Positions 38,730 to 58,487 of a stretch of 58,487 nt of DNA are shown here, piece after piece (position 1 is the stretch's first letter; each line of letters begins with the position of its first letter). The DNA is taken from NCBI GenBank assembly GCA_016199745.1, contig JACQFZ010000043.1:1-58487 (forward strand), in the 5' to 3' direction. Under the pieces are notes generated by a model. That model searched no databases and was not told the origin of the DNA. It worked only from the letters and a program-made list of their open reading frames with translations. The translations under genes and the position numbers were made by a program. The DNA comes from Gammaproteobacteria bacterium (GTDB lineage Bacteria; Pseudomonadota; Gammaproteobacteria; Acidiferrobacterales; Sulfurifustaceae).

Positions 38730-39533
38730 CTAAAGCTGCCATTCCTGCCCGCTGCGATAGACAAGTACATTTACACCAGCATCGGTTAATCGGCTTTGCA
38801 CGCACCAATGGCGAGGATCGGCGAGTGCATTCGCCTCGTGGCATTGCCATCGTGGTGAAACCGGTTCCTGCCAATCCGTTAGGAAAATGTTTTGCGCGAA
38901 GGCGGCGAAGCTCCCTTCGCCACAGGCTTTATACAGCGCTTCTTTCAACGACCAGATGAGTGTCCGCGCCTGTTGGTTGTCGCATTGTCTCGTCGTCATC
39001 ACCGCTGCCACTTCAGTCGCGAGCACCAACTCGGAAAGGCTTTGCGCCCGCACCGCGGCGCATAACTCCGTATCTATTCCGAGCGGAACATTGCCAATGG
39101 CGGCAACCGCGTAACGTCGGCAATGACTGATCGAGAGGTAGGTTTGGTCGTCAATAAAAGGGCGGCCATTTTGCTGACGGCGGATTGTCGTCGCCGAAAG
39201 TGCTGATGATCCACCCCGGAAATGACGGAGTGCGTATTTGGCTGCCAACCGTCCGGCCAACCATTCGAGCCGGCGCTTTTGAATCGGGAAGCGCTCGAAC
39301 TGGTGTATCTCATCCACCGTCAGCGATTCGATTAACAACGGTGGGAGTCGTTCGTCGATAAACCAGTCGCGGCGAAATTTCTCCAGATCGATCGTCGCGC
39401 AAACTATCGACGCCGACGGCTCCGACCACTCTGTTATGGCGATCTCCGGGAGCAACACGGAAGTCACTGCGGTTGCCGATGAACCGGGAGAGAAGAGGCT
39501 TCTGTTATCACAAGTTATGTCGGACTGGCACAT
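38730..39533 (-). CDS. pigL: Sfp-type 4'-phosphopantetheinyl transferase (PigL)
   Basis: This 267-residue protein has the PPTase motifs GRPFIDDQTYLSISHC (P1/P2), PLGIDTE with Mg-binding Asp and Glu, and WSLKEALYKACGEGSF (the WxxKEAxxKA signature). It moves phosphopantetheine from CoA to a conserved Ser of carrier proteins. It is the last gene of the prodiginine operon, 3 bp after the pigE TAA (TAAGAGATG), as PigL in known clusters has this activity. It could also prime the ACPs and PCPs of the PKS/NRPS operon, which has no PPTase of its own here (inferred). Confidence 0.92.
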   Translation of the reverse strand: MCQSDITCDNRSLFSPGSSATAVTSVLLPEIAITEWSEPSASIVCATIDLEKFRRDWFIDERLPPLLIESLTVDEIHQFERFPIQKRRLEWLAGRLAAKYALRHFRGGSSALSATTIRRQQNGRPFIDDQTYLSISHCRRYAVAAIGNVPLGIDTELCAAVRAQSLSELVLATEVAAVMTTRQCDNQQARTLIWSLKEALYKACGEGSFAAFAQNIFLTDWQEPVSPRWQCHEANALADPRHWCVQSRLTDAGVNVLVYRSGQEWQL

Positions 39534-39536
39534 CTC

Positions 39537-42047: not shown

Positions 42048-42093
42048 GATTTTCTCTGGTATTAGTTACAAGTAACTTCTGATTTACCCAAGC

Positions 42094-42115
42094 ATCCCCG
42101 CGAAGGCGGGAATGA
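42094..42115. repeat. Dispersed TCCCCGC/GCGGGAATGAC palindromic repeat, single unit
   Basis: ATCCCCGC-GAAG-GCGGGAATGAC in the 94-bp gap between pigD and pigE matches the half-units at 56,155-56,275 between pigI and pigH. It is a REP-like dispersed repeat that can form a GC hairpin and may modulate the transcript between the two genes. Confidence 0.6.
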
Positions 42116-42141
42116 CAAACAGGCAATTAATCAGAACTCCC

Positions 42142-44592
42142 TTAAGCTGTTTCCGCTTCGATCGACGATATGTCGTCGCTCACTGTCAACGCGTCGCGTT
42201 GCCATCCGGTCGCGGTCGCCAGGCTAAGACCGTCACCCTCGCTGTTATGCGACACGACTACGGAAAACAGATTAATGCAACCCCGCTTGAGCAATGCGGC
42301 CGTCAATATTTCCGAATCGAACGTGTTCAAGGTGCGGCAATTTACTTTCAGACCGGCAACCTCCCCCTCCCAATCATCCGAAAAAATGTTGACGAGTCGC
42401 ATCTGTCGCGACGTCTGTTTAAACAGAATGCGTTCTTGATAGGTATTGATAATGGAATGGCCGCCGTTGAGGAAATAAAAAATGGTGATGTTCTTGTTCA
42501 TCCGTTCCGGGTAATACAGCGCATTCTCCACGAAACAGGGCAGCACGTCCGGTACCAGTCCTTTGGCACCATCACCGACAAAAGCGAGGACATCGACCGG
42601 ACTGGTGTACGCCACACTTAACGTGGCTTGCAACGCATCGCCCATCAATGCCCGTCCATACCAGCCGGAAAATCCGTGCCGGGTTCTGGCGATATTTCTA
42701 ACAGCGGAGCTGCCACAACGGCCGACGTCATACATGCCCGTGTAATCGTAGTTGCGCTCGACGATCAACTTTTCTATCAACCCATTCAGGCGATGAAAGA
42801 AATAGTTCGGGCTCATCGGTATTTTCGGTAGCCGGCTCACCACATCCGATGGCGCGTCCGGTACGGCGTCCATGATCCGATAACGCCTATCTCTCAATGC
42901 CGGCGATACGTCGAGATGCGCATCGACGTATTCCAAGAACGCGCGATAGCTCATCACCAACGGATAATCCGCGAACGGCGCGATATGATCCGCATTGCTA
43001 GTCAGCTGCACAATATTCAGCTTGCGCGCAAGGCGCCCTTCGGAAAATGGTGTCGCAATTTGCGAAAGCTTGCTCTTGAGAAAGAACAAACATTGATCCG
43101 CGGTCGGATTGATTTTTTCGCGGGTATGAAGATAACTGTAAACGCGCGGACTATATCCGTATGCCGCCAATGTGCCGAGATAATTTCGGTTACGCTTCCC
43201 GTCAACGAACTTGGGAATCGAACCGGGGTGGATCAGCGAGTCGACCAGCGCGATCCCGGCACGATCGGCGATAGATAAACTAAGTTTCAGTTCCTCATCA
43301 TTTATCGCACCGCACTGCCAAAGCAGCCGAGGAGGACCGTCGTTGATGATCCGCATCACCTCGTCGAGCACCGCCGACGTCGATCCTATCGCCGGGGGTA
43401 GACTAGTCGGTCGCGGACGACTACCCGGAAACGCCAAGTCGATATGACCGCTGGCATCCAGCACCGCTTGCGTAGCCAGGATCACAACCGGACCTTCATT
43501 GGCGTCGTAAAGCTCGGCCGCCTTCTGTAAGTCCTGCACCAGCCGATCGACGCTATCCAAGTAAACATGGGGGATGCGCCGAGCGCGCAGCACTTCGCGC
43601 GTATCCTCATCGCGCGACACGGTGCCTTGAAACGCAAACCACTGTTCGGCGCGGTTCTCGGCACAAACGATGAATCCCTTCGCACGCGCCTCGCGCAAGT
43701 TAGCCATCGTCCCTTTGAATTCATCGATCATGCCGCTAGTAACGATGATCACGAACGGTTTGCGGTACAACTGCCAGTTCGCCATCGCACCACAGGCCAA
43801 GCTGTGCTCACTGGGTCCGCGCAACATCAGTACACCACGCCGGCCGGCTTCCACTTCGAAATAGTTAATCAGGTTGGAAACGAGCGAACCGGTGTAATAA
43901 AAACCCAACCAATCCGCACCCGCTCGTTGCGACATGAATTCGATGAGCTTCGCCCCCAACGTATTGTTGGACACGGCCTTCGCCTGTGGCTTTACCAGGC
44001 GATTGGTATAGCTCAGTTCGAAAAAATCCATCCACAAGCACAACAACTCCGCCTGCAATAGCGATCGATCGTCCGGCAACACACAGTGGATGTACTCCAT
44101 CGGTTGAAAATGAAGCTGCGTCTTTCGTTGTCGGGTAAATACAGCCGAGGCGAACTGCCGATAGAACAGAATCGACGACTGGCGCAAACGATCATAGAAA
44201 GCCGTCAGTTGTCGATCGATCTTCAACGAATCGATATCCGCCGCCAATGGATCGGCATAATCTACGCAAACTAAGCCGACCCGAAGCGGTTTGCCTAATT
44301 CGGCCGCAGACATATCAACGATTTTATTTACTGCGTGGTCGAGCGATTCGGCCTGAATCAACGCGATCGAAATGGGTTCCTCACTGATCCGCAAAAAGCG
44401 CAGCGCTTTCTCTCTGGCCTCACGATACACCGGCGACATTTCGGGCGGTGACAGCAAATAGTCGATGTCGGCGTGGATCGTCAGGCCCAGATGGGCCTGG
44501 TCGCACAGATCTTTCAACATTCCCACGAGCGCTTCAAAAAAGTAACGGCTACGCGTTACGGCGACGATGGCAATTGTCGTATCCATGGTCAT
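42142..44592 (-). CDS. pigD: PigD: ThDP-dependent acyl-transfer enzyme of the alkylpyrrole branch
   Basis: I choose ATG 44,592, 4 bp after the pigC TAA (44,586 is a second choice); a longer frame runs into pigC. The 816-residue protein has the layout of SEPHCHK-type ThDP enzymes. The Pyr-type domain (about 200-390) includes GVLMLRGPSEHSLACGAMAN, a middle domain follows, and the C-terminal PP domain has VLAFVGDGAKGLVPDVLP and FFLNGGH-like FYFLNGGHSIIN. In prodigiosin synthesis PigD adds an acetyl unit from pyruvate to 2-octenal to give 3-acetyloctanal. Its place between pigC and pigE supports this. Confidence 0.92.
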   Translation of the reverse strand: MTMDTTIAIVAVTRSRYFFEALVGMLKDLCDQAHLGLTIHADIDYLLSPPEMSPVYREAREKALRFLRISEEPISIALIQAESLDHAVNKIVDMSAAELGKPLRVGLVCVDYADPLAADIDSLKIDRQLTAFYDRLRQSSILFYRQFASAVFTRQRKTQLHFQPMEYIHCVLPDDRSLLQAELLCLWMDFFELSYTNRLVKPQAKAVSNNTLGAKLIEFMSQRAGADWLGFYYTGSLVSNLINYFEVEAGRRGVLMLRGPSEHSLACGAMANWQLYRKPFVIIVTSGMIDEFKGTMANLREARAKGFIVCAENRAEQWFAFQGTVSRDEDTREVLRARRIPHVYLDSVDRLVQDLQKAAELYDANEGPVVILATQAVLDASGHIDLAFPGSRPRPTSLPPAIGSTSAVLDEVMRIINDGPPRLLWQCGAINDEELKLSLSIADRAGIALVDSLIHPGSIPKFVDGKRNRNYLGTLAAYGYSPRVYSYLHTREKINPTADQCLFFLKSKLSQIATPFSEGRLARKLNIVQLTSNADHIAPFADYPLVMSYRAFLEYVDAHLDVSPALRDRRYRIMDAVPDAPSDVVSRLPKIPMSPNYFFHRLNGLIEKLIVERNYDYTGMYDVGRCGSSAVRNIARTRHGFSGWYGRALMGDALQATLSVAYTSPVDVLAFVGDGAKGLVPDVLPCFVENALYYPERMNKNITIFYFLNGGHSIINTYQERILFKQTSRQMRLVNIFSDDWEGEVAGLKVNCRTLNTFDSEILTAALLKRGCINLFSVVVSHNSEGDGLSLATATGWQRDALTVSDDISSIEAETA

Positions 44593-44596
44593 GTCG

Positions 44597-47371
44597 TTAC
44601 GGAAGAACCGCATGCGCGGACATGCCAATTCTTCGTTCCACATCAGTTGCCGGCACCGCCGGGTGTTTGCCGCGTTCTTCGATGCGCACGAGCCCGGCGT
44701 TGCCGTCCAGATAAATCAAATCGCCGGTGTTGATAGTTTGCGTGGCGGTTTTTGTGTTCACCACGGCGGGAATGCCGAATTCGCGCGAGACGATCGAGCT
44801 GTGCGATAACGTCGAACCCACATCCGCGACGACACCCGCGGCCAACACAAACAGCGGCGTCCACGACGCGTCGGTAAAGCGCGTCACCAGAATTTCACCG
44901 TGCTGAAACTCATCGATTTGCCGGTTCAAGTCGGTAATCACGCGCGCTCGCGCCACCGCCACACCCGGACTTGCACCGAGGCCAACTATCACGTTGACAC
45001 CGCCGTCGACCGCGACCGTTGCGGTAGTCTCGCGTGTCGGTGTATAGCCACCGATGATTACCATCGGTGGCTCCTTGCTGTGCCTATTCACCAGGTGCTG
45101 GCGCCGGTTGCGCTCGATCAGCGCTTTCGAGAACGCCTCCGCGGCCGACTTCTTCCCGGAAACGTAGGTCCGGAATTCGTTGAAATCGATATAGGGCAGA
45201 TCGCTCACAGCGACGACGCCTTGCCGCTCCAATCGGCTAAGCACCTCGACGATGATCTTTCGATAAAACCAGGTATGCGCAATGAACGTGGGCCGCACGG
45301 CTTCCCGGCGTTCCGCATTTTTGCCATAAGCCGAGACGATGAGCTTGAACAAAACGCGTATCTTGAACGGCAACTTGGCCAATAATTGTGCGGTATCTTT
45401 TTCTCTCGCCGCATCAGTTGCGCCAAGCTGCGCTTCAATCCGAACTTCCTTGGCGAGATACAAGCGAATCACCTGCAGAATATAGGTAGGGTCGTCGCTC
45501 CAACGTGGGATGCTCAATTCGAACTCTTGCCGTGCACGCGTACCGAATTCTTTCAGGAACGGCGCCAACGCTTCCGCCAGGAATGCGTGACCTTCGTTAT
45601 CACGTTCCAACGTCTCGATCAGATCGTCGGTACTCGTATCCAGGAACAACTGTCGCAACGCGGGCGACGCATTGACCGTCTCGGTCAATGCGACTATTCC
45701 ACGAGTCACTTCAATCGTCCGAAGATTATTCATCGCCGCCTTGATGCGGTTCTGCAATCCCTGTCCTTCGCCGTTGAGCCACTTACTGCACAGCTCGGTC
45801 AGCGCGTCGTATAGCGCGAACGACTGTAGAAAAAACGGCATGTAGGCGGCGCTTCCGATCAGAAAAAAATGGTCGACGCGTTTCAGTTCCGCATCGAGCG
45901 CTGACAGGCTCATGGCGTCGAGATTCAGCCCGCGGAAACGCGCCGTCTCGCGCTCGCGCAACACCAGCATTTTCCTCACCGTGCGACCGGCGGTGAGCAT
46001 GTTGCGAAGCTGAATCACCAACCAATACAGACCGCTTTTCAAATACCGAAATCCGGAAATGGGCGTGCCGTAAGGATTGACGTAAGCCGATAAATCCACC
46101 TCGTCATTGGCATAACGTTGGGTGAATTTCATCGGCTCATGCGTTGGCGGGCACTGCGTCAGCAAGTGCGCCGACGCGGAGATGTTCAAATACACGTGCC
46201 CCTGAAGGTAACCCATGTAGTGTTGCGAGTTGCCGATATCGCGCAGCCCCATCGTCTTCACCGACGGGCCGTGAATATGGTGCTGATAGAACCGGCAGAA
46301 CGAAAGGCCGAGCGGTGTCATCAAGCCGGTCACGATCTCGCCGGTATCCAAACGCGAGAACATCGCCTGGTCGCGAATGCGCGGATCGGTTTCCTCGGCA
46401 TCGGCATAAATCTTCGCGCCCGGCTTCGACGCCGTTATCGTGATCGGCCGCGCCTGCAAGATCCAAATTTTTTCGTCCTTGATCGCCCACTCGATATCGA
46501 CGTCCTGACCATAATGTTTGCGAATCGCGTCGGCTTGAACGGCAAGCTCGATCGCCTTGGCATTGGTCAACGTTCTCGCCGAAACCCACTGCGGCGGCGT
46601 TTCCTGCGTCACGACACCGCCGGCAAGTCCGGGCGCGGACATCGTCCATTTTTGCCGCACCGAACAATCCGCGACCGCAAAGTGGTCGCTGCGCACGACA
46701 TAGGTGTCGGTCGACACTTTTCCCGCGACCACGCCCTCGCCCACACCCCAGCACGATTCAATAATCGTGCGCGTGGAATCGCCGTCGATAGGATCAGCAG
46801 TGAACAAAACGCCAGCGACATCGGCGTCGACCATCGCCTGTATGACAACGGCGATGCCGGTCTTGCTGTCGGCAGCCGCGCCCGCCACCGCTTGGTGACG
46901 ACGATAAGTTTGCGCACGCCGATCCCACAACGAACCCCAAATGCGCTTTACGCTGTCTACCACAGCGCACGCATCCTTCACGTACAGGAAACTGTCGAAC
47001 TGTCCGGCGAACGAACGCAACGCGCCATCTTCATCGACCGCGGAAGAACGTACCGCTACCGACTCGCCGCCGATCGCTTGATAGACATCGACAATAGCGT
47101 GTCGAAGGTCGAAAGGAATTTCCGCTTGTTCGATGCGGCGGCGAATCTCTGCATGGGTATCGAGATCGAATGAACTCAAGCCGTCGATCCAGCGTTCAAT
47201 CCCCGATGTCTTCAAAAACATTTGGTAAGCGTCGGCAGTGACGCAATACGCCCGCGGCACCGAAAATCCCGCGCGAACTAATGTGTTGAGCGATTTTCCC
47301 TTACCGCCAAGACGTTCGACGCTGTCATCGGCGGTTCCAGTAATTTCTACTACGTAACGACCGCTGTTCAT
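44597..47371 (-). CDS. pigC: PigC: ATP-dependent prodigiosin-forming condensing enzyme
   Basis: This 924-residue protein has a PEP-synthase-like build. The N-terminal ATP-grasp domain has RLGGKGKSLNTLVRAGFSVP, AVRSSAVDEDGALRSFAGQF and DVDIEWAIKD. A long middle part follows, then a C-terminal PEP-utiliser mobile domain with GSTLSHSSIVSREFGIPAVV, whose His carries the phosphoryl group in relatives. PigC condenses the bipyrrole aldehyde with the alkylpyrrole to make the tripyrrole, the final step. Family length is about 890. The start overlaps the pigB stop by 4 bp. Confidence 0.94.
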   Translation of the reverse strand: MNSGRYVVEITGTADDSVERLGGKGKSLNTLVRAGFSVPRAYCVTADAYQMFLKTSGIERWIDGLSSFDLDTHAEIRRRIEQAEIPFDLRHAIVDVYQAIGGESVAVRSSAVDEDGALRSFAGQFDSFLYVKDACAVVDSVKRIWGSLWDRRAQTYRRHQAVAGAAADSKTGIAVVIQAMVDADVAGVLFTADPIDGDSTRTIIESCWGVGEGVVAGKVSTDTYVVRSDHFAVADCSVRQKWTMSAPGLAGGVVTQETPPQWVSARTLTNAKAIELAVQADAIRKHYGQDVDIEWAIKDEKIWILQARPITITASKPGAKIYADAEETDPRIRDQAMFSRLDTGEIVTGLMTPLGLSFCRFYQHHIHGPSVKTMGLRDIGNSQHYMGYLQGHVYLNISASAHLLTQCPPTHEPMKFTQRYANDEVDLSAYVNPYGTPISGFRYLKSGLYWLVIQLRNMLTAGRTVRKMLVLRERETARFRGLNLDAMSLSALDAELKRVDHFFLIGSAAYMPFFLQSFALYDALTELCSKWLNGEGQGLQNRIKAAMNNLRTIEVTRGIVALTETVNASPALRQLFLDTSTDDLIETLERDNEGHAFLAEALAPFLKEFGTRARQEFELSIPRWSDDPTYILQVIRLYLAKEVRIEAQLGATDAAREKDTAQLLAKLPFKIRVLFKLIVSAYGKNAERREAVRPTFIAHTWFYRKIIVEVLSRLERQGVVAVSDLPYIDFNEFRTYVSGKKSAAEAFSKALIERNRRQHLVNRHSKEPPMVIIGGYTPTRETTATVAVDGGVNVIVGLGASPGVAVARARVITDLNRQIDEFQHGEILVTRFTDASWTPLFVLAAGVVADVGSTLSHSSIVSREFGIPAVVNTKTATQTINTGDLIYLDGNAGLVRIEERGKHPAVPATDVERRIGMSAHAVLP

Positions 47372-49044
47372 GGGATTAGCTGCTCGGAATCAACTCCTTG
47401 TTGGAGCGGGATGTGTCCCGATTCACGCGTCATATGTTCTTCCGCCTGTGCCGCCGCGCTGCATCCCGCCGCAATCGCACTTTCGAGATTGCCGATGCCG
47501 ATGCTGTCCTGGTTGGCAAAAAAGATACCTCGGTGCGGATGCGACGCGCGCACAAACACGTCGTCTTTCATCTGACCCCGCTTGGCGATCACCAAGCTAC
47601 GCGGCCAACGCCAGATCTTGATGTCCTGAATCAGGTCGGTGGCAATCCCCATCGCCTGCAACAATTCACACGCTTCCAAATAAGTAGATCGCTGCAAGTC
47701 GTCAAACGTCGATAGCGTCAGCTTGCCTTGGTCCGCCTCGCGCGCGACCGGTTTGAGCAGCGTTAGCACACCGATGTCGTCAGTGCAGGCGCTGTCCATC
47801 CAGTTCGCCACCAAACACGCGCCGCTGCGACACCAGTCGTTGGGATATTTGCCGGTGACATGGGTTTCGATGAGATAACCCCCGAAATATTTTTTTGCAG
47901 CCGCTTTCTCAAGAAACACGTTGGCCATGCAATAGTCACGATGCTCGATTTGCCCGATCGCTTGGCGCTGACCCGCCGGTAAATCGTCGATGGCTTGCAG
48001 CGCGGAAAATTTCGGTGCCGCCCAAATCACGCTGCCGGCGGATACTGTCAAACGTTGACCGTCTTGCTCAAAATAAATTTGATATCGAGCACCGTCGTGT
48101 TGCACCGCATCGACACGTGCGTTCTTCTTAAGTGCGCATTGCGATCGGCAACCGAGCCGTTCCTGCAAGCGCTCGGTGATTAGTCCGTTGCCGCCGGGGA
48201 AACTAACCAACGATCCATAGAGATAGCCGATTAGAAAATAAAGCCCGACATAACCGGAAACTTCTCGGGCGGAAAGACATTCCGCCCGCAACGTCGTCTC
48301 GACCGCATCTTCCACCAACTTGCCGAAACGACCCGTCGGCGCTAACGATCGCGGCAATCGCGCACGCGCATCTTGATCGAACAACAACTCGTGCAGCGAT
48401 ATCGAATCCAACTGCTCCATGTCCTGTCGACGCCAGCGACCGTCTTCTCGCCAGGGTAGTGCTGGATACCGGTCTGACCCCGGCTTGAATCGATCGAGAT
48501 AGGCAAACAGCGCCGCGAACGTTGGATCGCCCAGTTTCTTTGATGCAGCAATGAGCTTGCGCCTGGCGATGGCACTGTAGATAAGGTTGACGGTGAGACC
48601 GTAAATACCCGGATTCAACAATGCCGCAGGGCGCTTCAATAGCCCCATCACCACTTCATCCATCGAGCCGAGCAATCGCCGTGTGTCAAAAATCGCCAAC
48701 ATGTCGGCGTCGCCGGCCACCCGCCAGGTGTTCCAAAGATCGAGGTCGCGCAGCAGCGTCGCTACTTCACCGTCATTAGTGGGGAGCTGAAAACAGGTGC
48801 CGCCGATCGCAAAGCGCAGCCCATTGCGGTATTCCGTGCGCGCATTACCACCCAACTCCGTCCCCTGATCGAGCAGCAACACGGATCGATTTTGAATTTT
48901 CCAAGCGGCAGTGAGTCCCGAAACACCGCCGCCGACGACAACGACGTCATACTCACCGAGGGCGCGCCCCTGCCGGCTGCTGGGAGAACCGAAGGGCCTG
49001 CCTGCCGGCTCGAATTGTGTGGTGGGAAGCGCGTTAATTTTCAT
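47368..49044 (-). CDS. pigB: PigB: FAD-dependent dihydro-MAP oxidase
   Basis: This 558-residue flavoprotein of the amine-oxidase/desaturase type has DVVVVGGGVSGLTAAWKI near residue 33, GGNARTEYRNGLRFAIGG, and the C-terminal FAD block HPHRGIFFANQDSIGIGNLE. PigB oxidises dihydro-MAP to 2-methyl-3-alkylpyrrole (MAP). It is shorter than Serratia PigB (about 670), and I see no obvious long C-terminal membrane segment. Context (pigB-C-D-E contiguous) makes the assignment firm despite the generic fold. Confidence 0.88.
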   Translation of the reverse strand: MKINALPTTQFEPAGRPFGSPSSRQGRALGEYDVVVVGGGVSGLTAAWKIQNRSVLLLDQGTELGGNARTEYRNGLRFAIGGTCFQLPTNDGEVATLLRDLDLWNTWRVAGDADMLAIFDTRRLLGSMDEVVMGLLKRPAALLNPGIYGLTVNLIYSAIARRKLIAASKKLGDPTFAALFAYLDRFKPGSDRYPALPWREDGRWRRQDMEQLDSISLHELLFDQDARARLPRSLAPTGRFGKLVEDAVETTLRAECLSAREVSGYVGLYFLIGYLYGSLVSFPGGNGLITERLQERLGCRSQCALKKNARVDAVQHDGARYQIYFEQDGQRLTVSAGSVIWAAPKFSALQAIDDLPAGQRQAIGQIEHRDYCMANVFLEKAAAKKYFGGYLIETHVTGKYPNDWCRSGACLVANWMDSACTDDIGVLTLLKPVAREADQGKLTLSTFDDLQRSTYLEACELLQAMGIATDLIQDIKIWRWPRSLVIAKRGQMKDDVFVRASHPHRGIFFANQDSIGIGNLESAIAAGCSAAAQAEEHMTRESGHIPLQQGVDSEQLIP

Positions 49045-49088
49045 TGTTAACCCTCGGCAAACTCGATTCTTGGAAATGCATCAGCCCA

Positions 49089-49400
49089 CTACAATTGCCG
49101 GTACCCCGGCGGAATCGGATCACAGATTATTTGTTCGCTGACGTCCGCCATTTGCGAAAAGCGCGCGACCAACGATTGGAACAATGGAGTTCGCATGTCT
49201 TTTTCAAAATCCGACCAGGAACTTATCTGAACGATCTCGAGAAAATCGCAGTCTCCGCCGCGTTCCACACGTTGCATGTGAAAGCCCATAACACTCGGCA
49301 AATTATGGCAGGCGGCGTAGTCCACCTCTTTGACCCATTTGACGAACTCGTCGGCGCAAGCCGTGTCTTTCAGTTTGATTTTGTCGATGACAATCAACAT
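49089..49400 (-). CDS. pigK: PigK/RedY-like small protein of the prodiginine pathway
   Basis: This 103-residue protein, MLIVIDKIKLKDTACADEF and so on, has an alternating beta-alpha pattern with two aromatic-rich helices (WVKEVDYAACHNLP, SDFEKDMRTPLFQSL). It looks like a dimeric alpha-beta barrel (ABM-type) fold. Size and place in the cluster match PigK/RedY, small proteins of undefined catalytic role in the bipyrrole branch. It lies 6 bp after the pigM stop and 44 bp before pigB. Confidence 0.8.
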   Translation of the reverse strand: MLIVIDKIKLKDTACADEFVKWVKEVDYAACHNLPSVMGFHMQRVERGGDCDFLEIVQISSWSDFEKDMRTPLFQSLVARFSQMADVSEQIICDPIPPGYRQL

Positions 49401-49406
49401 GGTGAT

Positions 49407-50666
49407 TTACCTCGTCTCGTCGCCGAGCGCTGTCGTCGGAAAAACACAAAACGGATTGATGGCGCGGCGATAGCGAAACGAGATAGTCGGCGTTTGCGCC
49501 GGCTCGCCGACGCGGGCGAGGAACCAAATCTCGTCGAGTACCTGCAACAGTTGTTGCAACTGAGCGCGGATGTCGTCGTGCTGCAGAACAACGCTCACGG
49601 GATGTAACGCCAAACCGTTTTCCGTCGCTGCCAGCCACAACGCGAGCATCGATTCTCCGGCGAGGAATTGTCGTTCGGCGTAATCCGCAATGCTCCGCAC
49701 AACTCCCTGTGCTCCCGGGAGAGGATTAACAACAAGCGAGCCGTTGCTCGCTGCCTGAGCGCTTTGTTCGATCGACGAGGGAGAATATGTTAGGTAATAA
49801 ACGGCGGCGCTATGTGCGACCAAATCGCCGAGTTGTCGAGCGATTCGCCGAGCAACTCCCAAGCGCACGGAAACCGGCATGAACACCGGCGCCAACAACC
49901 CGCGGTACCAGGCTCGCTTCCACGCCGGCATCGGTCCCAGTAATTGCTGAATATTGAAACCGATGTCATCTACCTCACCGGTGCGCTCGGAGAAGTCGAT
50001 GTGGCGATAGCTCTCGGCCCACGCGCGTCGATCGCTGAAATCACGCTCGGCGTGGCGGGCAACGAATTCAGCGAGTCGTTTTACATCTTGTCGCTGATCG
50101 CGCTTATGCCATGTGCATGCATCGTCCGTCGACAGCCGATACGGCAACACCGATCCAGCATCAGTCGGTAGCATGCACACCGAGGAAATTCGATAGCGAC
50201 CACGCAACGTTTTGCGTTGCTGTGCCAAACGCAGAAGATAATCGAGTTGAGCAGGTTGTTCCGAAATCAGTTGTTCGTTGATAAAAAATACCGCGAGCGG
50301 CTCACATGTCGAAAATTTTTGTGCCCCCATCGCCGTAGCAGGCGCCCACCCCTGCGAAAATAGCTGGACCGCAACATCGATTCCCTGTAAGCGCAGAAAG
50401 TTATGAAACAGCGCGGCAAAACCACCGACGCTCATGCGCATTTCTCTTTTTAAACTGAGCAATGCCGATAACGATCTGGTCTGATCGATACCCAACACCA
50501 ATGCGTTACGCCATTCAAAAGGAACGACTGGGGACGGCTGAACGTGTTCGGTGTAGAACCGCTGATTGCACCCGATCAGCGACCACGGCTGACAGTTATG
50601 CGATGACGGCGCCAGGCTGGCCCATTCGGCAGCACGCCGTATCTTTGTCGCGATAACGTCGGTCAT
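49407..50666 (-). CDS. pigM: PigM: nitroreductase-fold bipyrrole methanol oxidase
   Basis: I choose ATG 50,666, preceded by AAGGGG and 10 bp after the pigA stop; the longer frame from 50,732 overlaps pigA. The 419-residue product begins MTDVIATKIRRAAEWASLAP with SSHNCQPW, the FMN-binding opening of nitroreductase-like enzymes. It then has two imperfect repeats with LPGAQGVVRSIADYAERQFLAG and ESMLALWLAATENGLALHPVS. PigM oxidises 4-hydroxy-bipyrrole methanol (HBM) to the aldehyde. The assignment rests on the fold and complete cluster context. Confidence 0.88.
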   Translation of the reverse strand: MTDVIATKIRRAAEWASLAPSSHNCQPWSLIGCNQRFYTEHVQPSPVVPFEWRNALVLGIDQTRSLSALLSLKREMRMSVGGFAALFHNFLRLQGIDVAVQLFSQGWAPATAMGAQKFSTCEPLAVFFINEQLISEQPAQLDYLLRLAQQRKTLRGRYRISSVCMLPTDAGSVLPYRLSTDDACTWHKRDQRQDVKRLAEFVARHAERDFSDRRAWAESYRHIDFSERTGEVDDIGFNIQQLLGPMPAWKRAWYRGLLAPVFMPVSVRLGVARRIARQLGDLVAHSAAVYYLTYSPSSIEQSAQAASNGSLVVNPLPGAQGVVRSIADYAERQFLAGESMLALWLAATENGLALHPVSVVLQHDDIRAQLQQLLQVLDEIWFLARVGEPAQTPTISFRYRRAINPFCVFPTTALGDETR

Positions 50667-50676
50667 CAATGACCCC

Positions 50677-51855
50677 TTACATCGTCGCCGGCTTGCGCCG
50701 GCGCACCGCCGCCGTTCGCAGCTGGCGAGCAAGATTGTTTTTCAAAACCTCGGTCGTGCCGGAGAAGATTGTGGACGGTAAAGAGTTGCGCAATTGCCGT
50801 TCGATCTCGCCGGTCAACACGCCGTAGGCGCCGTGGATTTGCAAAGCGTCAAGCCCGTTCTGCACGGCGCCGTCCGACGCCAACAGCTTCGCCATCGCCG
50901 AGCTGATGGGATGCGACTTGCCTTGGTCGAGATGCCACGCGGCTTTGTGAACCGCGAGCCGCGCGGTTTCGAGGCGCAAGTACATGGCGACCAGCTTGTG
51001 GCCAATGGCTTGATGGTCGCCAATCGCTTGGCCGAATTGTTGGCGCGATTCGCTGCGCGCCAACGTCAGATCGAACTGGCGCTGCATAAGACCCAGGTAG
51101 AGCGCGAACAAACAAGTGCGCTCCCATTCCATCGATGCCTGGAACACGGCACCGCCACTACCCTCGGCACCGATACGATCGTGTTCGCCGATCCAAACGT
51201 CGTCGAACACGATATCGCCCATGGCGGTGGTGCGCAGGCCGACCTTTTCGTGCGCCGTGGCGCTGACGGTCACGCCGGGTGCGTGCCGATCCAAGATGAA
51301 GGTGCTGAGATCGAAAAAATTTCCGTTATCGGCAGTACGCGCGTGCACGATCAGGAAATCGGCGACCGGCGCGTTGGTGATATAAGTTTTTTGACCACGC
51401 AGACGGTAGCCATCTGCTTCTTTGACGGCACGCGTCTGTATCGCGAATACGTCCGAGCCGACGTCGATTTCGGTGACAGCATGTGCGCCGATCAAACCTT
51501 GCGCTCGGATCTTGGGCAACCAACGCCGCGATAGCTCGTCGCCGCCGTAGCTAACCAGTGGATGGATACACGCGCACAGATGCGCGGCAAACGCGAATAC
51601 CAATCCCGTATCCAAGCAGTGCTCGCCCAACGCTTCCAGCGCCACTGCCGTATCCAACGCGCCATACCCGCGCCCGCCGAACGACTCGGGCACGAGCAAA
51701 GCATCGAGACCGTGTGCGCTCAACACCTTCCAAAGATCGCGCGAGAACACACCGTCGGCGTCGCGCTGCGTCAGATGGGGATCGACGAGCTGCAGGCACA
51801 CCTGCGCAATCTCTTGGCGAATGTCTTGTTGTTTTTTGCTGTAGGCGAAATCCAT
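50677..51855 (-). CDS. pigA: PigA: L-prolyl-S-PCP dehydrogenase (acyl-CoA-dehydrogenase fold)
   Basis: This 392-residue flavoenzyme has the ACAD order: AHAVTEIDVGSDVFAIQT, GLRTTAMGDIVFDDVW, RQQFGQAIGDHQAI and LQIHGAYGVLTGEIERQLR, ending in STIFSGTTEV. The catalytic base is probably the Glu in MEWERTCLF. It oxidises prolyl-PigG twice to pyrrolyl-2-carboxyl-PigG. Length agrees with PigA (about 386). It lies 5 bp after the pigJ stop. Confidence 0.93.
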   Translation of the reverse strand: MDFAYSKKQQDIRQEIAQVCLQLVDPHLTQRDADGVFSRDLWKVLSAHGLDALLVPESFGGRGYGALDTAVALEALGEHCLDTGLVFAFAAHLCACIHPLVSYGGDELSRRWLPKIRAQGLIGAHAVTEIDVGSDVFAIQTRAVKEADGYRLRGQKTYITNAPVADFLIVHARTADNGNFFDLSTFILDRHAPGVTVSATAHEKVGLRTTAMGDIVFDDVWIGEHDRIGAEGSGGAVFQASMEWERTCLFALYLGLMQRQFDLTLARSESRQQFGQAIGDHQAIGHKLVAMYLRLETARLAVHKAAWHLDQGKSHPISSAMAKLLASDGAVQNGLDALQIHGAYGVLTGEIERQLRNSLPSTIFSGTTEVLKNNLARQLRTAAVRRRKPATM

Positions 51856-51860
51856 CGGCG

Positions 51861-54572
51861 TTATTCGCGATATGCTTCCAGTAACAAATGAAAGTTGATC
51901 CCGCCGGTACCGAAAGCATTAATCGCCGCGCGCTTCGGGCGCTCGGCGTTAAAAGACCATGCTTGGTTTTCCTTTAGGACGTCGAAGTTCTTTGTATCGA
52001 GCGCCAGCACCGGATTGATCTCTCCGCGAATCACATTGGCGGGATAGCAATCCTGCTCCATCGCCAGCAGCACTTTATGGACGCTGGCCATGCCGGCTGC
52101 GGCGAAGCAATGGCCGAAGCGGGTTTTGAGCGCGCCCAATTTCAGCACCTGATCGGAACCGCGCGGATAGACGTCGGCTAACGATTGAATTTCGATCTCA
52201 TCGCCGATAGTCGTACCGGTGCCGTGGGTCTCGACGTAGTCGACGGCATCGGATTCATACGCGACTTGAGCGAATGCCCGCGTCATCGACTTGACCTGCC
52301 CCGCTACATTCGGCGCGATGACTGATTTGCTTTCAGTACAACTGCCAACGGCGTTGAGCACACCGTGAATCCGCTGACCAGTGCGCTTAGCATCCGCGAG
52401 CCGGGTTAGCACCAGCGTTCCGGCGCCGTCGCCCGGCGTAAAGCCGGTGGCTTGATCGGTGAAGGTGGCGATCAGGTCCGGCGCCAACATGCGCTGCGAT
52501 GAGCACAGACATAAGTCGGTTATGTTGACGGGCAGTTCCACGCCTGTCACCAACGCCAAGTCGCAGCGACCGGAACGCAAGCGGTTCATGGCAAGCTCAA
52601 TGGCCGCCAGCGAACCAGCGCACGCCGCCTCGACGGCGACATAGCTCGCCGGCGCACCGAACTGCTCGGCGACTTGCCGGCTAATACCGCTAGCAGCCAG
52701 ATGTTCGAGATCGAGTGATGTGGGCAACTGTTGCGCGAGCGCACGCTCAACGGCACGTAGTCCGGCGTCGACGTCGGCCGCGGGCAACTGCAACTCATCG
52801 GCGGTTTCATACAGAAGGTCTTCGAACTTTCCGTAGAGAAATTTGAACGCCGCCTGTTTTTCCTGCTCCAGCGTCAGGTTGGATGCCGTCACTGCCAGGA
52901 CACGTAACGGCCACTTCACCAAATTGGCCAACGCGCCCACGCCCTGCGCCGCTTCGCGCGCCGCCGCGCGCGCAGCCACATGAGCGGCGCTATGACAGCT
53001 GTCGTCCGATAATTGCCGAGCGATCCGTCCGATATCCAGCGTCGAGGCACGCTGCACGTAGTAACTGGCTGGCTCAGCGGGATCGGGATGCCAATAAATC
53101 TCCGGCTTGAAGTACGCCGAACGCAGCTCACTAAAACACTCGTCGTTACTCGTTAATCGTTGCCAATATTCCTGCAAGCCGACGGCCTTGCCATAACAGC
53201 CGCCCAGACCGATGACGGCAATGCCCTGAGCTTCATTTGTGGATCCGTTCAGAGGAACATATGAAGGTTCCGAACACGTCGGGAGCGATGGAACCGTCGC
53301 GGAGAAATCGCTGCCGAGCTTGATCGCAAACCCGTTCCCGTGCAGACCGATGCCGGCCACTAAGGTGCTGACGCGTTCCTGGTCGATGGCGATGACCTGC
53401 CGTGGAATTATTAAATTCGACCACTTGGAAAATCGGCTCGACACGTCGTCATGCGGCGCTACCGACGGTGGGATTTGTCGGTGTTGAATGACCAATAAAG
53501 CTTTAATAAACGATGCGAATACGCTCGCAGCATAGGTGTACCCGGTGACGCTTTGGGCCGCGCCGACATAGCAAGCGCCGTCATTCGTCGAACCACGGGT
53601 CGCGGCGATACTGGACAGCCAATCGGCAAAACCCGCCTCTCCGCGATTACGGACCGTATCTATATATAAGAGTGACGGGTCGCTAAGCGGCGCTTTCCAT
53701 GGGCTGACGTCACCAGCGCTGTCATTGCCGGGCAACGGCGCCGAATAGGCGGTATCGATGTAGGCTAATGCCTTCGACTCCGGTCGTTCGCAGGCCTTCA
53801 GCACCACCGCACACACGCCCTCACCGAAACCACCGACACCGTCCGCACTAAACGGCGCACCACACCGCGATACATCGACCCCCTGCTTTGCCAACACCTC
53901 CAGCATCAACGGTGATTCCAACCGCTGTCCGCCGATAATAAGCACCGCCTTGGCGCGGCGCTGCTGCAAGGCGTCGATCGCACTGATAAACGCCTCGATG
54001 CCACCGCTGTCGAGCGACTCCAGCGCCATTGCCCGGCCACGCAACTTGAAATAAGCAGCGATCCGCGCCGGGATTGTGCTCGCCATCTCGCCGACCTTGT
54101 CGTGCGACGTGGCAGTGAAGGCGTGCTGTAGTTTTTTCTTGATCTGCGCGGTAATCCGCGGGCGCAATGCCGGATCGAGTGGCGTCGCAAATTCCACAGC
54201 CAGTTGCTGACCGAACAAACGTGCATAATTTTCATAAGCGCGGTTCAGGCCGAAGCCCGTGCAAAAAATAACGTCGGTGAGTTCAGCATCGATCTCCCCC
54301 TGTTCCAGCCCGGCTTGCGTCAACGCTTGCTGCGCGACCTCGAACAAATGCAACTGAATCTCGTTGATGGAATCTCGGTAAATCGGTGGCACGTTGAATT
54401 GCCCATAACTAGCCCTGGGCTGATCGATACGTTGAACATTCGTACGGGAATCGTGCCACGGAGAGTGTTCGACAAATCGTTGCCAAAGCTCATCGAGATT
54501 GTTGGCTCCGGCAAAACGGCAGGCCACTCCCGTCACGGCAACACGGGGAACACCGGCAGATGCCACCGTCAT
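51861..54572 (-). CDS. pigJ: PigJ: tandem ketosynthase protein for bipyrrole formation
   Basis: 903 residues with two ketosynthase-like halves. The C-terminal KS (about 450-903) has a full triad: EAACAGSLAA (Cys), VETHGTGTTIGD (His) and FGHCFAAAGM (His). In the N-terminal KS (about 1-420) the nucleophile region reads LESLDSGGIEA, with Asp where Cys is expected, so that half should be catalytically silent, like a chain-length factor. PigJ takes pyrrolyl-PigG and condenses it with malonyl on the PigH carrier domain. The stop overlaps nothing; the ATG overlaps the pigI stop by 4 bp. Confidence 0.93.
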   Translation of the reverse strand: MTVASAGVPRVAVTGVACRFAGANNLDELWQRFVEHSPWHDSRTNVQRIDQPRASYGQFNVPPIYRDSINEIQLHLFEVAQQALTQAGLEQGEIDAELTDVIFCTGFGLNRAYENYARLFGQQLAVEFATPLDPALRPRITAQIKKKLQHAFTATSHDKVGEMASTIPARIAAYFKLRGRAMALESLDSGGIEAFISAIDALQQRRAKAVLIIGGQRLESPLMLEVLAKQGVDVSRCGAPFSADGVGGFGEGVCAVVLKACERPESKALAYIDTAYSAPLPGNDSAGDVSPWKAPLSDPSLLYIDTVRNRGEAGFADWLSSIAATRGSTNDGACYVGAAQSVTGYTYAASVFASFIKALLVIQHRQIPPSVAPHDDVSSRFSKWSNLIIPRQVIAIDQERVSTLVAGIGLHGNGFAIKLGSDFSATVPSLPTCSEPSYVPLNGSTNEAQGIAVIGLGGCYGKAVGLQEYWQRLTSNDECFSELRSAYFKPEIYWHPDPAEPASYYVQRASTLDIGRIARQLSDDSCHSAAHVAARAAAREAAQGVGALANLVKWPLRVLAVTASNLTLEQEKQAAFKFLYGKFEDLLYETADELQLPAADVDAGLRAVERALAQQLPTSLDLEHLAASGISRQVAEQFGAPASYVAVEAACAGSLAAIELAMNRLRSGRCDLALVTGVELPVNITDLCLCSSQRMLAPDLIATFTDQATGFTPGDGAGTLVLTRLADAKRTGQRIHGVLNAVGSCTESKSVIAPNVAGQVKSMTRAFAQVAYESDAVDYVETHGTGTTIGDEIEIQSLADVYPRGSDQVLKLGALKTRFGHCFAAAGMASVHKVLLAMEQDCYPANVIRGEINPVLALDTKNFDVLKENQAWSFNAERPKRAAINAFGTGGINFHLLLEAYRE

Positions 54573-56122
54573 GAGAGCGCACCCGCTGGCGCGCCATCCA
54601 CCAGCGCGCGGTAGTCGATCTTGCCGTTGGGATTTTTTGGCAACACCGGAAGCGCGCCGACGTTATGCGGGATCATGTATTTCGGCAGATGCTCGGCGCA
54701 GAACGACTTGAGCTCGGCAACGGATATCTTGGTGTCAACGCCGCGGGTGGCGATGTATGCGATCAGCCGCGTCGTTTGTTTTTGCTCGGCGACGACGGCG
54801 ACTTCCTGAATCTGCGGGTGCGTCGCCAACACCGCTTCGATCTCGCCGAGCTCGATGCGAAAGCCATTGAGCTTCAACATGCGGTCGATGCGGCCGTGAT
54901 AAACGAGCTCGCCGTTTTCGTAACGGCCGAGATCGCCGGTGGCGTGACAGTTATGTCGATGGTTGTCGCCGTTCTTCGGATCCTCGCGATGCCAATAGCC
55001 CGGCGTCACGCATGCGCCCGCCACCCAGATCTCGCCAAGCTGATCGCTTTCCGGAGGCAAGATGTCGCCGGCGTCGTCTTGTAGCCAAACCTGGGTCTGA
55101 TCGATCGGCCGGCCGATCGGCACCGGCGCGGTCCGCTGCAAGTCCGGCGGCGTCACCTTGTAATACAGGCACACGTTGGTCTCGGTGGGGCCATAGAAGT
55201 TATACAAATCGCACGTTACCGGCAGACAACGCGCCAACGTGCTCAAGGTCGGCATCGGCATAGTTTCGCCGGCGAATATGACACGCCGTAATCGCAATGG
55301 CTCGATGCGTTCCCAGATCCGCGCGCGTGTCATCAATGCCAACATCGACGGCACGGTATAAAGCACGGTGATGCCGTGCGTCTGCAAAATTTCTTCGAGC
55401 CGTCCGATAGTTTGCGTATCCGCCTCATGCGTCACGTAAACAGCGGCGCCGTGTCGCAGACTCACGAACAAATCGAAGGTGCTCAAGTCGAAATTGAAAC
55501 TGGCGATATTTAGAAAAGTGTCTTGCGACGTCAGCGACAATTCGCGCCCGCACCACTCGACGAAGTTGGCAAGATTGCCCCGACTCAGTTGCACGCCCTT
55601 CGGCTGACCCGTCGAACCGGAGGTGTATAAGATGGCGGCGATACGGTCGGCGGAAACGTCGCGGGGTTCCGGCAGTTCTATGGGTTCGGCGGATAAAGCA
55701 TCGAACGAAAGCACTGTGACGCGAGGATCCTCGCTCACGTGCACGCTCGGCTCAGCGAACACCAGAATGCTCTCGATAAAATCCGGCACACCCACCGCTG
55801 CAAGCGCGTCATAGTGCGCTGCGTCGAGCAATAACGCGCGTGGGCGGCAGTCTTCAAGGATGCGCCGTGCGCGCGATAGCGGCTGCGCATCGTCCAGTGG
55901 AACGTAGACACCACTGGCATAGAGCACCGCCAATATCGACAACGCGTAGTCGTTGCTTTTGGCCATCCAGATAGCCACACGCTCACCGGCGAATTCAGCG
56001 AGATACCGGTTGGCCACACCGCTCACCCAGCCGGCGGCCTGACGATAACTGACGCCGCCATCGGCTAATAGAAAGGCGCGATTCGGTGTTGAGCGAGCGT
56101 AGTGCGTTAGTGGAAGATGCAT
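54569..56122 (-). CDS. pigI: PigI: L-prolyl-AMP ligase
   Basis: This 517-residue stand-alone adenylation enzyme has ILYTSGSTGQPKGVQLSRGN, FNFDLSTFDLF, FYGPTETNVCLYY, ATGDLGRYENGELVYHGR with the hinge DRMLKLNGFRIELGEIE, and the catalytic Lys in NPNGKIDYRAL. It activates L-proline and loads it onto PigG. Cluster position and size match PigI (about 490). It is separated from pigH by 183 bp containing repeats, the longest gap in the operon. Confidence 0.93.
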   Translation of the reverse strand: MHLPLTHYARSTPNRAFLLADGGVSYRQAAGWVSGVANRYLAEFAGERVAIWMAKSNDYALSILAVLYASGVYVPLDDAQPLSRARRILEDCRPRALLLDAAHYDALAAVGVPDFIESILVFAEPSVHVSEDPRVTVLSFDALSAEPIELPEPRDVSADRIAAILYTSGSTGQPKGVQLSRGNLANFVEWCGRELSLTSQDTFLNIASFNFDLSTFDLFVSLRHGAAVYVTHEADTQTIGRLEEILQTHGITVLYTVPSMLALMTRARIWERIEPLRLRRVIFAGETMPMPTLSTLARCLPVTCDLYNFYGPTETNVCLYYKVTPPDLQRTAPVPIGRPIDQTQVWLQDDAGDILPPESDQLGEIWVAGACVTPGYWHREDPKNGDNHRHNCHATGDLGRYENGELVYHGRIDRMLKLNGFRIELGEIEAVLATHPQIQEVAVVAEQKQTTRLIAYIATRGVDTKISVAELKSFCAEHLPKYMIPHNVGALPVLPKNPNGKIDYRALVDGAPAGALS

Positions 56123-56275: not shown

Positions 56276-56305
56276 CGAGGGGAAATTTCCTGAGCATTCC
56301 GGGTT

Positions 56306-57907
56306 TCAGTTAACTTCCAGAAGTCGCGTCTCACACGCCACCTCGATCAGAATGTCGACCGCTTGATCGAGATCCTCGCGCGTATGTGACGTCAGCACAC
56401 TGATGCGCAATCGCGCCTCGCCGACCGCAACACCGGGGAACACCACCGTTTGGCAAAATAAACCGCGGCGACGCACGGCGCGGCCGAACGTCATTGCTTT
56501 TTGTTCGTCGCCGATGGCGACGGGAATGATCGCGCTGTCACTCTGTTCGGTGTCGAAACCTTGCTGCTGCAACGCCGTGCGCAGATAACGAATGTTCGAC
56601 CACAGCTTTTCGATGCGCTCGGGTTCTTGCTGCAAAATCTCGATCGACGTAATCAAACCGGCGGCAACGTGCGCCGGGATCGCCGCAGCGAACACGTACG
56701 CATTCGCATAGAAACGCAGATAATCGATCACGTCGCGATTGCCGACGACGAAGCCGCCCATACCGGCCAGCGCTTTACTCAGCGTGCCGACTTCCAGATC
56801 GACGGCTCCCTTTAACCCGAAGTGCTCCGCTGTACCCGAACCGCGCTCGCCGAGCACGCCGGTCGCGTGCGCATCGTCGATCAGCAAGCGCGCGTTGTAC
56901 TGCTTGGCCAGGCGAATCATGTCCGGCAACTTGGCGATGTCGCCGTGCATGCTGAACACGCCGTCGGCCACAATGAGTTTGCCTCCGGGCCTATCGGCCG
57001 CGCGCTGCAAAACTTGCTCCAACGAATCCATGTCGTTGTGAGAATAAATCCGCCGAGCAGCGCCGGCCAACTTGGCGCCGTCCTGAATACTCATGTGGTT
57101 GTAGACATCGCTGATGACGACGTCGTTCGGACCGAGCAACGCCGACAACACGCCAACGTTGGCGGAATAGCCGGACGGGAACACGATGCAATCGTCTCGT
57201 CCTTTGAGCGCGGCGAGCTTGGCTTCCAGTTCTTTGTGCAACGCGCTGGTGCCGCCGATCAACCGCGAACCAGTATGAGTGGCGCCGAATTTTTTTGCGG
57301 CATCGCCGATCGCCTGAATAACGCGCGGATCGTTCGCCAAGTCCAGATAGTTGTTGGAGGCGAACATCAGAAACTCGCGCTCTTGGCCGGCATGCTCGTC
57401 GAAAATGACGGCGCGGTTGGCGCTACGGTCTTTCGCCGCCATGCCGTACCAGAACAGTCCCTGGCTCGTGCGATCTTTTAGAAATGGTGCAAAACGCTCG
57501 ACTTTCGCGAACAAATCAGCACCGCCATCGCCAACGAAATCGCGTATCGTTAGTCGGTCGTAGTCGGCTGGCACCGTAACCGCGGAATCGACATCGTTGT
57601 CGCTTTGGCGCACGGCACTCGACGGAAACCAGCGATACCACGCTTCCTCGCCAAGCTCGTACTTGCCAAATTTTTCAATCAGCATGTTCAGCGTTTCTAC
57701 ACCCTGCGTGGTCACCGGCTGCGGTACCGTGAACATCTTGTTCAGTTCGGCGGCGATGGCGGCGATCATGATCGAGTCGATACCAAGGTCTTCCTGCAAC
57801 AAAGCGGACGGAATCAACTCATCTTCCGAATACTTCGAAAATGTTTTTACGACCTCGCGGATAAGTCGCTCCTTTTTCTTGCGCGACCCGACATCTGCCT
57901 CGACCAT
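56306..57907 (-). CDS. pigH: PigH: ACP-fused aminotransferase-type HBM synthase
   Basis: In 533 residues an N-terminal carrier domain (about 10-85) has LGIDSIMIAA (Ser45). A PLP alpha-oxoamine synthase domain (about 130-533) follows, with FASNNYLDLANDPRV, GSRLIGGTSALHKELE, LIDDAHATGVLG and the PLP Lys in TLSKALAGMGG. It condenses the beta-ketothioester made by PigJ with L-serine, with decarboxylation, giving 4-hydroxy-bipyrrole methanol. Serratia PigH is about 650 residues with two tandem ACPs; here I see only one. GGAGTAATAATAAA precedes the ATG, 7 bp after the pigG stop. Confidence 0.93.
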   Translation of the reverse strand: MVEADVGSRKKKERLIREVVKTFSKYSEDELIPSALLQEDLGIDSIMIAAIAAELNKMFTVPQPVTTQGVETLNMLIEKFGKYELGEEAWYRWFPSSAVRQSDNDVDSAVTVPADYDRLTIRDFVGDGGADLFAKVERFAPFLKDRTSQGLFWYGMAAKDRSANRAVIFDEHAGQEREFLMFASNNYLDLANDPRVIQAIGDAAKKFGATHTGSRLIGGTSALHKELEAKLAALKGRDDCIVFPSGYSANVGVLSALLGPNDVVISDVYNHMSIQDGAKLAGAARRIYSHNDMDSLEQVLQRAADRPGGKLIVADGVFSMHGDIAKLPDMIRLAKQYNARLLIDDAHATGVLGERGSGTAEHFGLKGAVDLEVGTLSKALAGMGGFVVGNRDVIDYLRFYANAYVFAAAIPAHVAAGLITSIEILQQEPERIEKLWSNIRYLRTALQQQGFDTEQSDSAIIPVAIGDEQKAMTFGRAVRRRGLFCQTVVFPGVAVGEARLRISVLTSHTREDLDQAVDILIEVACETRLLEVN

Positions 57908-57914
57908 TTTATTA

Positions 57915-58172
57915 TTACTCCATCAGCGCCAAGCGGTTGATCAATTGCTCCAGCTTCACAACACTATGAAAATTTTCCGGATGTATCTCCCGCAACGGAA
58001 TACGTACGTTGAATTCGGACAATACAAAATCGACCACGTCGAACACCGACGCCGAGTCGAGAATGTTCAGGTCCATCAGCGGTGTATCAACCGATAGGTC
58101 GGCGTGACCGTCAAGAAAACTGAGCGAGATGAAATTCAGTATTTTCTGGGAACGGTCGTTAAGATTGAGCAC
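57915..58172 (-). CDS. pigG: PigG: prolyl/pyrrolyl carrier protein
   Basis: This 85-residue acidic carrier protein has the phosphopantetheine Ser in NILDSASVFDVVDFV (Ser40). The start is GTG at 58,172, with AAAGGAG 6 bp upstream. It carries proline from PigI and is the substrate of PigA. It is the first gene of the operon, lying 90 bp downstream of the TGTCA repeat array. Size matches PigG (about 87). Confidence 0.93.
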   Translation of the reverse strand: MLNLNDRSQKILNFISLSFLDGHADLSVDTPLMDLNILDSASVFDVVDFVLSEFNVRIPLREIHPENFHSVVKLEQLINRLALME

Positions 58173-58223: not shown

Positions 58224-58261
58224 GTTGCACTCTCGTTACAGATGCCGTGTCATCAACTTCA

Positions 58262-58301
58262 TTGACAGCAAAATGACAGTGAATTGACATAGAGTTGACA
58301 G
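58262..58301 (-). promoter_or_regulatory. Four-unit Pho-box-like direct repeat array
   Basis: Read on the minus strand the units are CTGTCAA-CTCT, ATGTCAA-TTCA, CTGTCAT-TTTG and CTGTCAA. The TGTCA cores start at 58,300, 58,289, 58,278 and 58,267, an exact 11-bp period. The classical Pho box is two such units, CTGTCAT plus four AT-rich bases plus CTGTCA. Four units make a double box for two PhoB dimers. They lie 90-129 bp upstream of the pigG start and read toward it. A different OmpR-family or SARP-type activator would also bind 11-bp repeats. Confidence 0.7.
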
Positions 58302-58347: not shown

Positions 58348-58487
58348 TCTTAGGGCGTGTCACCAATTACGCCAACCACACCCAAATAGCCGCACAATAA
58401 ATACCCGCCAGGAAGTTACGCGCCCGTTTGTCATAGCGCGTGGCAACGGCGCGGAATTGTTTGAGTTTGGCAAAGAAGTTTTCGATG
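58348..58487 (-). mobile_element. IS5-like insertion sequence end with transposase C-terminus (cut by window edge)
   Basis: On the minus strand the frame open from the window end reads IENFFAKLKQFRAVATRYDK and then RARNFLAGIYCAAIWVWLA before TAA at 58,367-58,369. This is the standard C-terminus of IS5/IS1031-group transposases, with the DDE-domain Glu in IENFF. The adjoining TTAGGGCGTGTCACCAATTA (58,350-58,369) would be the right terminal repeat. The element may be complete beyond the window. It inserted about 50 bp upstream of the Pho-like array and bounds the pig operon. Confidence 0.88.

Follow-up and report, generated by a model that had tools for sequence, protein, structure and literature searches.

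The prodigiosin-type (pig) operon described here raises the question of whether an antibiotic pigment may be placed directly under the control of phosphate sensing, since the window, namely the whole stretch of 58,487 nucleotides that was analysed, carries an array of PhoB-like repeats in front of the first gene of the operon. A link between phosphate and prodigiosin is known from Serratia sp. ATCC 39006, in which pigA is upregulated in a PhoB-dependent manner under conditions mimicking phosphate limitation (PMC2695467). In the available text of this study, only putative weak Pho boxes are mentioned at pigA, smaI and rap, direct PhoB action is not demonstrated, and part of the PhoB effect passes through other regulators. 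The precedent invoked in an earlier note on this DNA thus holds for PhoBR raising the expression of prodigiosin genes, but, given these weak boxes and the lack of demonstrated direct binding, not for direct control. With regard to the present locus, we consider it likely that the array is a double Pho box at which two PhoB dimers would directly activate the pig operon upon phosphate starvation. PhoB binding in vivo, its outcome (activation and not repression), the transcription start site and the effect on pigment are what we infer from the sequence.

Layout, rarity and score of the array

Read on the minus strand, positions 58301-58262 correspond to CTGTCAACTCTATGTCAATTCACTGTCATTTTGCTGTCAA, that is, four units (CTGTCAA, ATGTCAA, CTGTCAT and CTGTCAA) separated by CTCT, TTCA and TTTG. 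This reading confirms the earlier description of four TGTCA cores, exact in all units, with a period of exactly 11 bp and a leading C in three of them (units 1, 3 and 4), and direct repeats of CTGTCA-type 7-mers at an 11-bp period are the signature of a Pho box. The array (58262..58301, minus strand) is intergenic, is oriented toward pigG and does lie directly upstream of this gene, as had been claimed, its last unit (58262) being separated by 89 bases from the GTG start of pigG (58172). When the four units are compared pairwise, the five core columns agree in all six pairs, and the other six columns in only 1 to 3 of them. As the cores are invariant and the spacers variable, the array bears little resemblance to a recent tandem duplication, and this origin was rejected.

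The four-core pattern, allowing up to three mismatches, was never encountered in 100 dinucleotide shuffles of the window, and in the window itself its only matches were the array, without mismatch, and a one-unit shift of it, with three mismatches. The exact three-core pattern is confined, in the genome as a whole (4.26 Mb, 72 contigs, 98% complete), to the pig array, where it occurs as two overlapping windows, and the reversed control is found nowhere.

For scoring, PhoB matrices were built from the 59 E. coli ChIP-seq motif instances given in Table 1 of PMC10294691. With the four-unit matrix, the pig array reaches 32.4 bits (p 1.2e-11 per position, about 1e-4 expected per genome), compared with 36.1 bits for E. 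coli pstS, 28.1 for pstS of the same genome, 20.3 for a weaker array on contig C49, and 9.8 for the best window position that does not overlap the array. The matrix check proposed in the earlier note therefore places the whole array well above background. The same does not apply to its parts, as an 18-bp matrix gives 15.3, 14.3 and 12.6 bits for the three overlapping boxes, all below the median of the E. coli training set (16.6 bits, lower quartile 13.9). Each is expected 37 to 213 times per genome, so that no single 18-mer has genome-wide significance with this matrix, and an unrelated site in the window scores higher (16.8 bits). The strength of the pig site resides in the whole array rather than in single boxes. 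Of note, the core is followed by A in three of the four units, at variance with the preference of PhoB sites for a pyrimidine, which is no absolute rule. TGTCAA accounts for 2 out of 41 TGTCA-type half-sites of the E. coli set, and an A follows the core in 7 out of 87 units of the class-wide arrays considered below, one of them before a PhoX-family gene. Because of this A, the pattern TGTMAYN5TGTMAY misses the pig array, which is not among its 4 matches in the genome (1 for the control).

Phosphate machinery and related sites

The genome encodes PhoB and PhoR together with PhoU and a Pst operon. A single protein exceeds the curated cut-off of the PhoB model TIGR02154 (354 bits, cut-off 296), and PhoR (TIGR02966), a PstS-family protein (TIGR02136) and PhoU (TIGR02135) are likewise above their curated cut-offs; the stretch from pstS to phoU contains the ORFs anticipated there, which were assigned to pstC, pstA and pstB by inspection. 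The recognition helix of this PhoB is identical to that of E. coli PhoB at 16 out of 17 residues, compared with 3-10 out of 17 in the ten other OmpR-type regulators that gave a usable alignment. At eight positions presumed to contact DNA, it shares all eight residues with E. coli PhoB, and a regulator encoded on contig C48 shares seven. PhoR thus accompanies a PhoB with matching DNA-recognition residues.

The exact motif CTGTCAN5CTGTCA occurs at three sites in the genome, namely, the pig array, the gap between pstS and pstC, and a phosphonate/phosphite uptake locus that also encodes a response regulator, a kinase and a porin. With one mismatch, 12 sites are found (three of them in the pig array) versus 5 for the reversed pattern. 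The earlier note had suggested searching for the same array before pstS and phoBR; the pstS promoter indeed carries four units of the same layout, with one core exact and three degenerate, but no TGTCA array is present upstream of phoBR, where only TGTAAT-type boxes are seen. A near-perfect Pho box with a -10 element at 10 nt lies between pstS and pstC (C57, L043 4540-4557, minus strand), which suggests an internal Pho promoter within the pst operon. The C49 array (L045, C49:69000-76000, 3662-3701, minus strand) is a weaker, three- to four-unit version (CTGGCAA, CTTTCAG, CTGTCAG and CTGTCAT, with TCGT, CAAG and TTCG as spacers). It separates a TctD-like regulator and a kinase from a divergent porin and phosphate/phosphite/phosphonate uptake proteins, and the locus is probably Pho-controlled.

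A search of 368 further genomes from the class detected the exact three-core pattern at 32 sites, in 29 genomes, versus 3 for the reversed control. Loci were obtained for 29 of the 32 sites, and a downstream ORF was counted when it had at least 80 residues and began near the site or no more than 400 nt beyond it; four loci had no such ORF, leaving 25 proteins to be scanned. By our own sorting, which yields raw counts to be read with no background rate of phosphate genes, five belong to phosphate-type families (L160, L162, L171, L182 and L183: two PBP_like_2, PhoX, Porin_O_P and the phosphate ABC permease DUF3708), nine more are plausible Pho targets (L157, L164-L167, L170 and L179-L181, with L165-L167 from one genus), and 11 fall into other or unassigned families. 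The excess over the control and the nature of the downstream families indicate that TGTCA arrays are enriched in the class and often precede phosphate-type genes. Considering together the layout, rarity and matrix score of the pig array, the presence of PhoBR and Pst genes, the PhoB helix and this class-wide enrichment, the array is almost certainly a double Pho box according to most of the sequence tests made, and it is very probably bound by PhoB.

The pigG-first cluster and its promoter

The operon starts with a pigG-type acyl carrier protein gene (57915..58172, minus strand), which has a GTG start preceded by an AAAGGAG ribosome-binding site. In tblastn searches, pigG shares 65% identity with two Chitinimonas loci and 36-54% with the other loci matched at 1e-8; its product has no Pfam match and only weak acyl carrier protein matches below the cut-off in NCBIfam. 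The following pigH-type gene (56306..57907, minus strand) codes for a PP-binding domain fused to a BioF/KBL-like PLP enzyme (PF00550 and PF00155) and shares 53-55% identity with three plasmid-borne homologues. The next genes (44597..56122, minus strand), assigned by Pfam and a homology map, come in the order I, J, A, M-like, B and C, where pigC (44597-47371, minus strand) codes for the prodigiosin ligase (NF052631 prodigiosin_PigC, 1403 bits, cut-off 1300). The cluster ends with pigD-like, pigE-like and phosphopantetheinyl transferase genes (38730..44643, minus strand), assigned in the same way; the D-like protein has no Pfam match, and the two others match aminotransferase III and PPTase. With a PigC-type ligase and homologues of G, H, I, J, A, B, D and E, this is a prodigiosin cluster, of order pigG-H-I-J-A-M-B-C-D-E plus the phosphopantetheinyl transferase gene. 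In each of the 43 other loci compared, pigG is preceded on the same strand by an ORF of 200 residues or more, at a distance of 45 nt or less in 42 of them, so that pigG is internal there and leads the cluster here.

The cluster (38730-58172) looks like a mosaic. On the homology map, the nearest homologues of G, H, I, J, A and M are those of the Chitinimonas loci, which have a tambjamine-like layout and yielded no B, C or D over the 21.9 kb examined; for B, C, D and E the nearest are those of the Massilia/Rugamonas prodigiosin clusters, joined for C to E by those of Hahella and Thiosymbion. No close homologue of the pigF O-methyltransferase or of pigN was found in this 98% complete genome with one Methylocystis query each, the best matches (24% identity) being located on other contigs, and the product may therefore be a demethylated, norprodigiosin-like pigment.

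The end of a multi-copy insertion sequence (58349..58487, minus strand) is situated about 50 bp upstream of the array, and the contig breaks within this element at 58487. Five further copies or partial copies exist in the genome, starting at window positions 58349-58351, and the element is also found at the ends of contigs C8, C29 and C42; by inspection, the C-terminal part of a transposase within 58349-58487 seems to read toward pigG. On the other side of the cluster, apparent remnants are present at 36683-37024 and 37583-38353, namely, an ATP-type PEP carboxykinase reduced to an N-terminal fragment and a sulfatase-like ORF whose match to its family is confined to the N-terminal part.

A survey of 43 other pig-type loci (40 named and 3 plasmid loci) revealed no comparable array, the best four-unit score being 19.9 bits. 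This site, on a Pseudoalteromonas xiamenensis plasmid (L047, 7069, minus strand), is about 180 bp before pigA and faces away from it. As many of these loci were too short to reach the start of the cluster, pigA-type genes were fetched from 29 genomes, corresponding to 29 of the 40 loci (all but L050-L053, L055, L063, L069, L071, L072, L083 and L086). Seven of these pigA genes are internal (L144, L146 and L152-L156) and hence uninformative on the cluster promoter, whereas 22 have 400 bp upstream without a same-strand gene ending within 160 nt. In the 400 bp preceding these 22 cluster-leading genes, the PhoB matrix revealed no comparable array. The highest exceptions, Pseudoalteromonas NBT06-2 (three-unit, 20.4 bits, P 0.0008) and P. 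rubra S2599 (two-unit, 14.7 bits, P 0.003), are not striking for about 100 tests, and the start of a Methylocystis plasmid cluster gave a two-unit score of 14.7 bits (P 0.0055). The pigA upstream region of Prodigiosinella confusarubida LacA (L132), which we take to be the Serratia 39006 strain, scored no better than random sequence (two-unit, 7.2 bits, P 0.70). A Pho box common to pig clusters was thus rejected, given the lack of a comparable array in the 43 loci and before the 22 pigA genes. In its own right, the Pseudoalteromonas sp. NBT06-2 site (L140), a three-unit array of TGTAAC/GGTAAC type with an 11-bp period about 125 nt before pigA, possibly represents a second Pho-controlled pig promoter. 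The 176-bp region upstream of pigG has no homologue in 40 other genomes (best match 22 nt, E 0.005), PigH searches in the 59 nearest genomes returned nothing beyond 33-41% identity to the PLP domain region, and none of the relatives searched carries an orthologous promoter.

The promoter itself departs from the usual arrangement. The hexamer located 10 nt after the last unit, GACACG, matches a -10 element at 2 out of 6 positions, compared with 4 out of 6 at the same offset for pstS (GATAGT) and pstC (TACCAT) of the same genome and 4-5 out of 6 in three E. coli control promoters; the values are 3 out of 6 at the C49 array and 1 out of 6 at a candidate site that precedes a ppx-like ORF. Since random DNA of the same composition gives 2 out of 6 or fewer at a fixed offset about half the time, this test is weak both ways and calls for caution without amounting to a refutation. 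A weak candidate -10, TGTAAC (58235..58240, minus strand), matches at 4 out of 6 positions, lacks the conserved A2 and T6, and sits 21 nt after the last unit, one unit beyond the canonical 10 nt. A consensus scan of either strand detected no sigma-70 promoter before pigG, and a plus-strand promoter formed by the repeated TTGACA was rejected on the same scan.

Proposed PhoB control, alternative readings and known systems

If the array acts as its layout suggests, it would consist of two adjacent pairs of 11-bp units, each pair accommodating one PhoB dimer. Upon exhaustion of phosphate, PhoR would phosphorylate PhoB, two dimers of which, arranged head-to-tail on the minus strand, would occupy the array beside the pigG promoter and bring in the sigma-70 RNA polymerase, leading to transcription of the pigG-H-I-J-A-M-B-C-D-E operon. 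Of the direct and strong PhoB control put forward in the earlier note, the PhoB site is supported by the layout and matrix score of the array, but activation and strength are not, as the single boxes remain below the E. coli median and the expected -10 is lacking.

The missing -10 at the canonical offset is what gives some weight to the main alternative, in which PhoB would bind the array without canonical activation of pigG, either as a repressor or with no transcriptional consequence. In E. coli, PhoB sites can be bound without effect, and many of those reported in the available text of PMC10294691 are inert; these are chiefly intragenic, whereas the pig array is intergenic, points toward pigG and is followed, after 89 bp, by this gene, which has a good ribosome-binding site. 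Its cores are moreover invariant and its spacers are not, and the weak -10 at 58240-58235 is available one unit further on. We regard this non-activating role as improbable, albeit worth keeping in mind. Less probable still is the use of the array by another regulator of the OmpR/PhoB type, for instance the TctD-like regulator of contig C49. The genome contains 12 OmpR-type regulators above 150 bits, the C49 array precedes this regulator and shares with the pig array a non-pyrimidine after TGTCA, and the C48 regulator resembles E. coli PhoB at 7 of the 8 presumed contact positions and at 10 of the 17 helix residues. Against this, the helix of the C49 regulator matches that of E. coli PhoB at only 7 out of 17 residues, versus 16 out of 17 for PhoB, and phosphate-type genes are often found downstream of TGTCA arrays in the class. 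Furthermore, the C49 array may also be a PhoB site, given the phosphate/phosphite/phosphonate uptake proteins encoded at this locus. A chance or otherwise non-regulatory repeat would fit with the lack of a comparable array in other pig clusters and of any homologue of the 176-bp region in 40 other genomes, but it is very hard to reconcile with the empty shuffles, the uniqueness of the array in the genome, the expectation of about 1e-4 per genome under the PhoB matrix, and cores that are constrained while the spacers are free; chance was rejected on these grounds, and we give this reading very little credit.

Direct activation of the pig operon by PhoB, the reading we retain, would add a new target to those of a known regulator, within a rearranged cluster headed by pigG and with two departures from the canonical promoter. 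As a tentative scenario, which we hold to be rather less likely than direct activation itself, a horizontally acquired and reshuffled pigG-first mosaic may have been captured by the phosphate response, with its own double Pho box, a pigment, perhaps norprodigiosin-like, as a first-line member of the Pho regulon, no quorum-sensing intermediate, and PhoB positioned one unit further upstream than usual. Should PhoB activate the operon directly, this would be a clear-cut example of phosphate sensing coupled without intermediates to an antibiotic pigment, in contrast to Serratia 39006, where phosphate and pigment are linked in part indirectly and weak boxes have been reported. It would also help to account for the onset of secondary metabolism that certain producers show at low phosphate, and would provide a phosphate-controlled promoter of unusual geometry. 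In the open-access literature, searched by titles and the beginnings of abstracts, we found no report of a further Pho box in a prodiginine promoter, and a regulator of a related type, OmpR, binds the Serratia marcescens prodigiosin promoter directly, according to the available text of PMC9712742.

The closest parallel among known systems is E. coli pstS, which also carries four head-to-tail CTGTCA-type units of 11 bp upstream and in the same orientation (36.1 versus 32.4 bits). The E. coli promoter has a -10 element, TATTTT, 10 nt after the last unit, which the pig promoter does not, and its target is a phosphate transporter instead of a pigment operon. The pstS and pstC genes of the same genome have Pho boxes of the same layout as the pig array, but differ from it by a -10 matching at 4 out of 6 positions at the canonical offset and by a pyrimidine after the core of each unit. 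Finally, in Serratia 39006 the boxes are weak and located at pigA, whereas the array described here is strong and stands before pigG, in a cluster with a different operon order.
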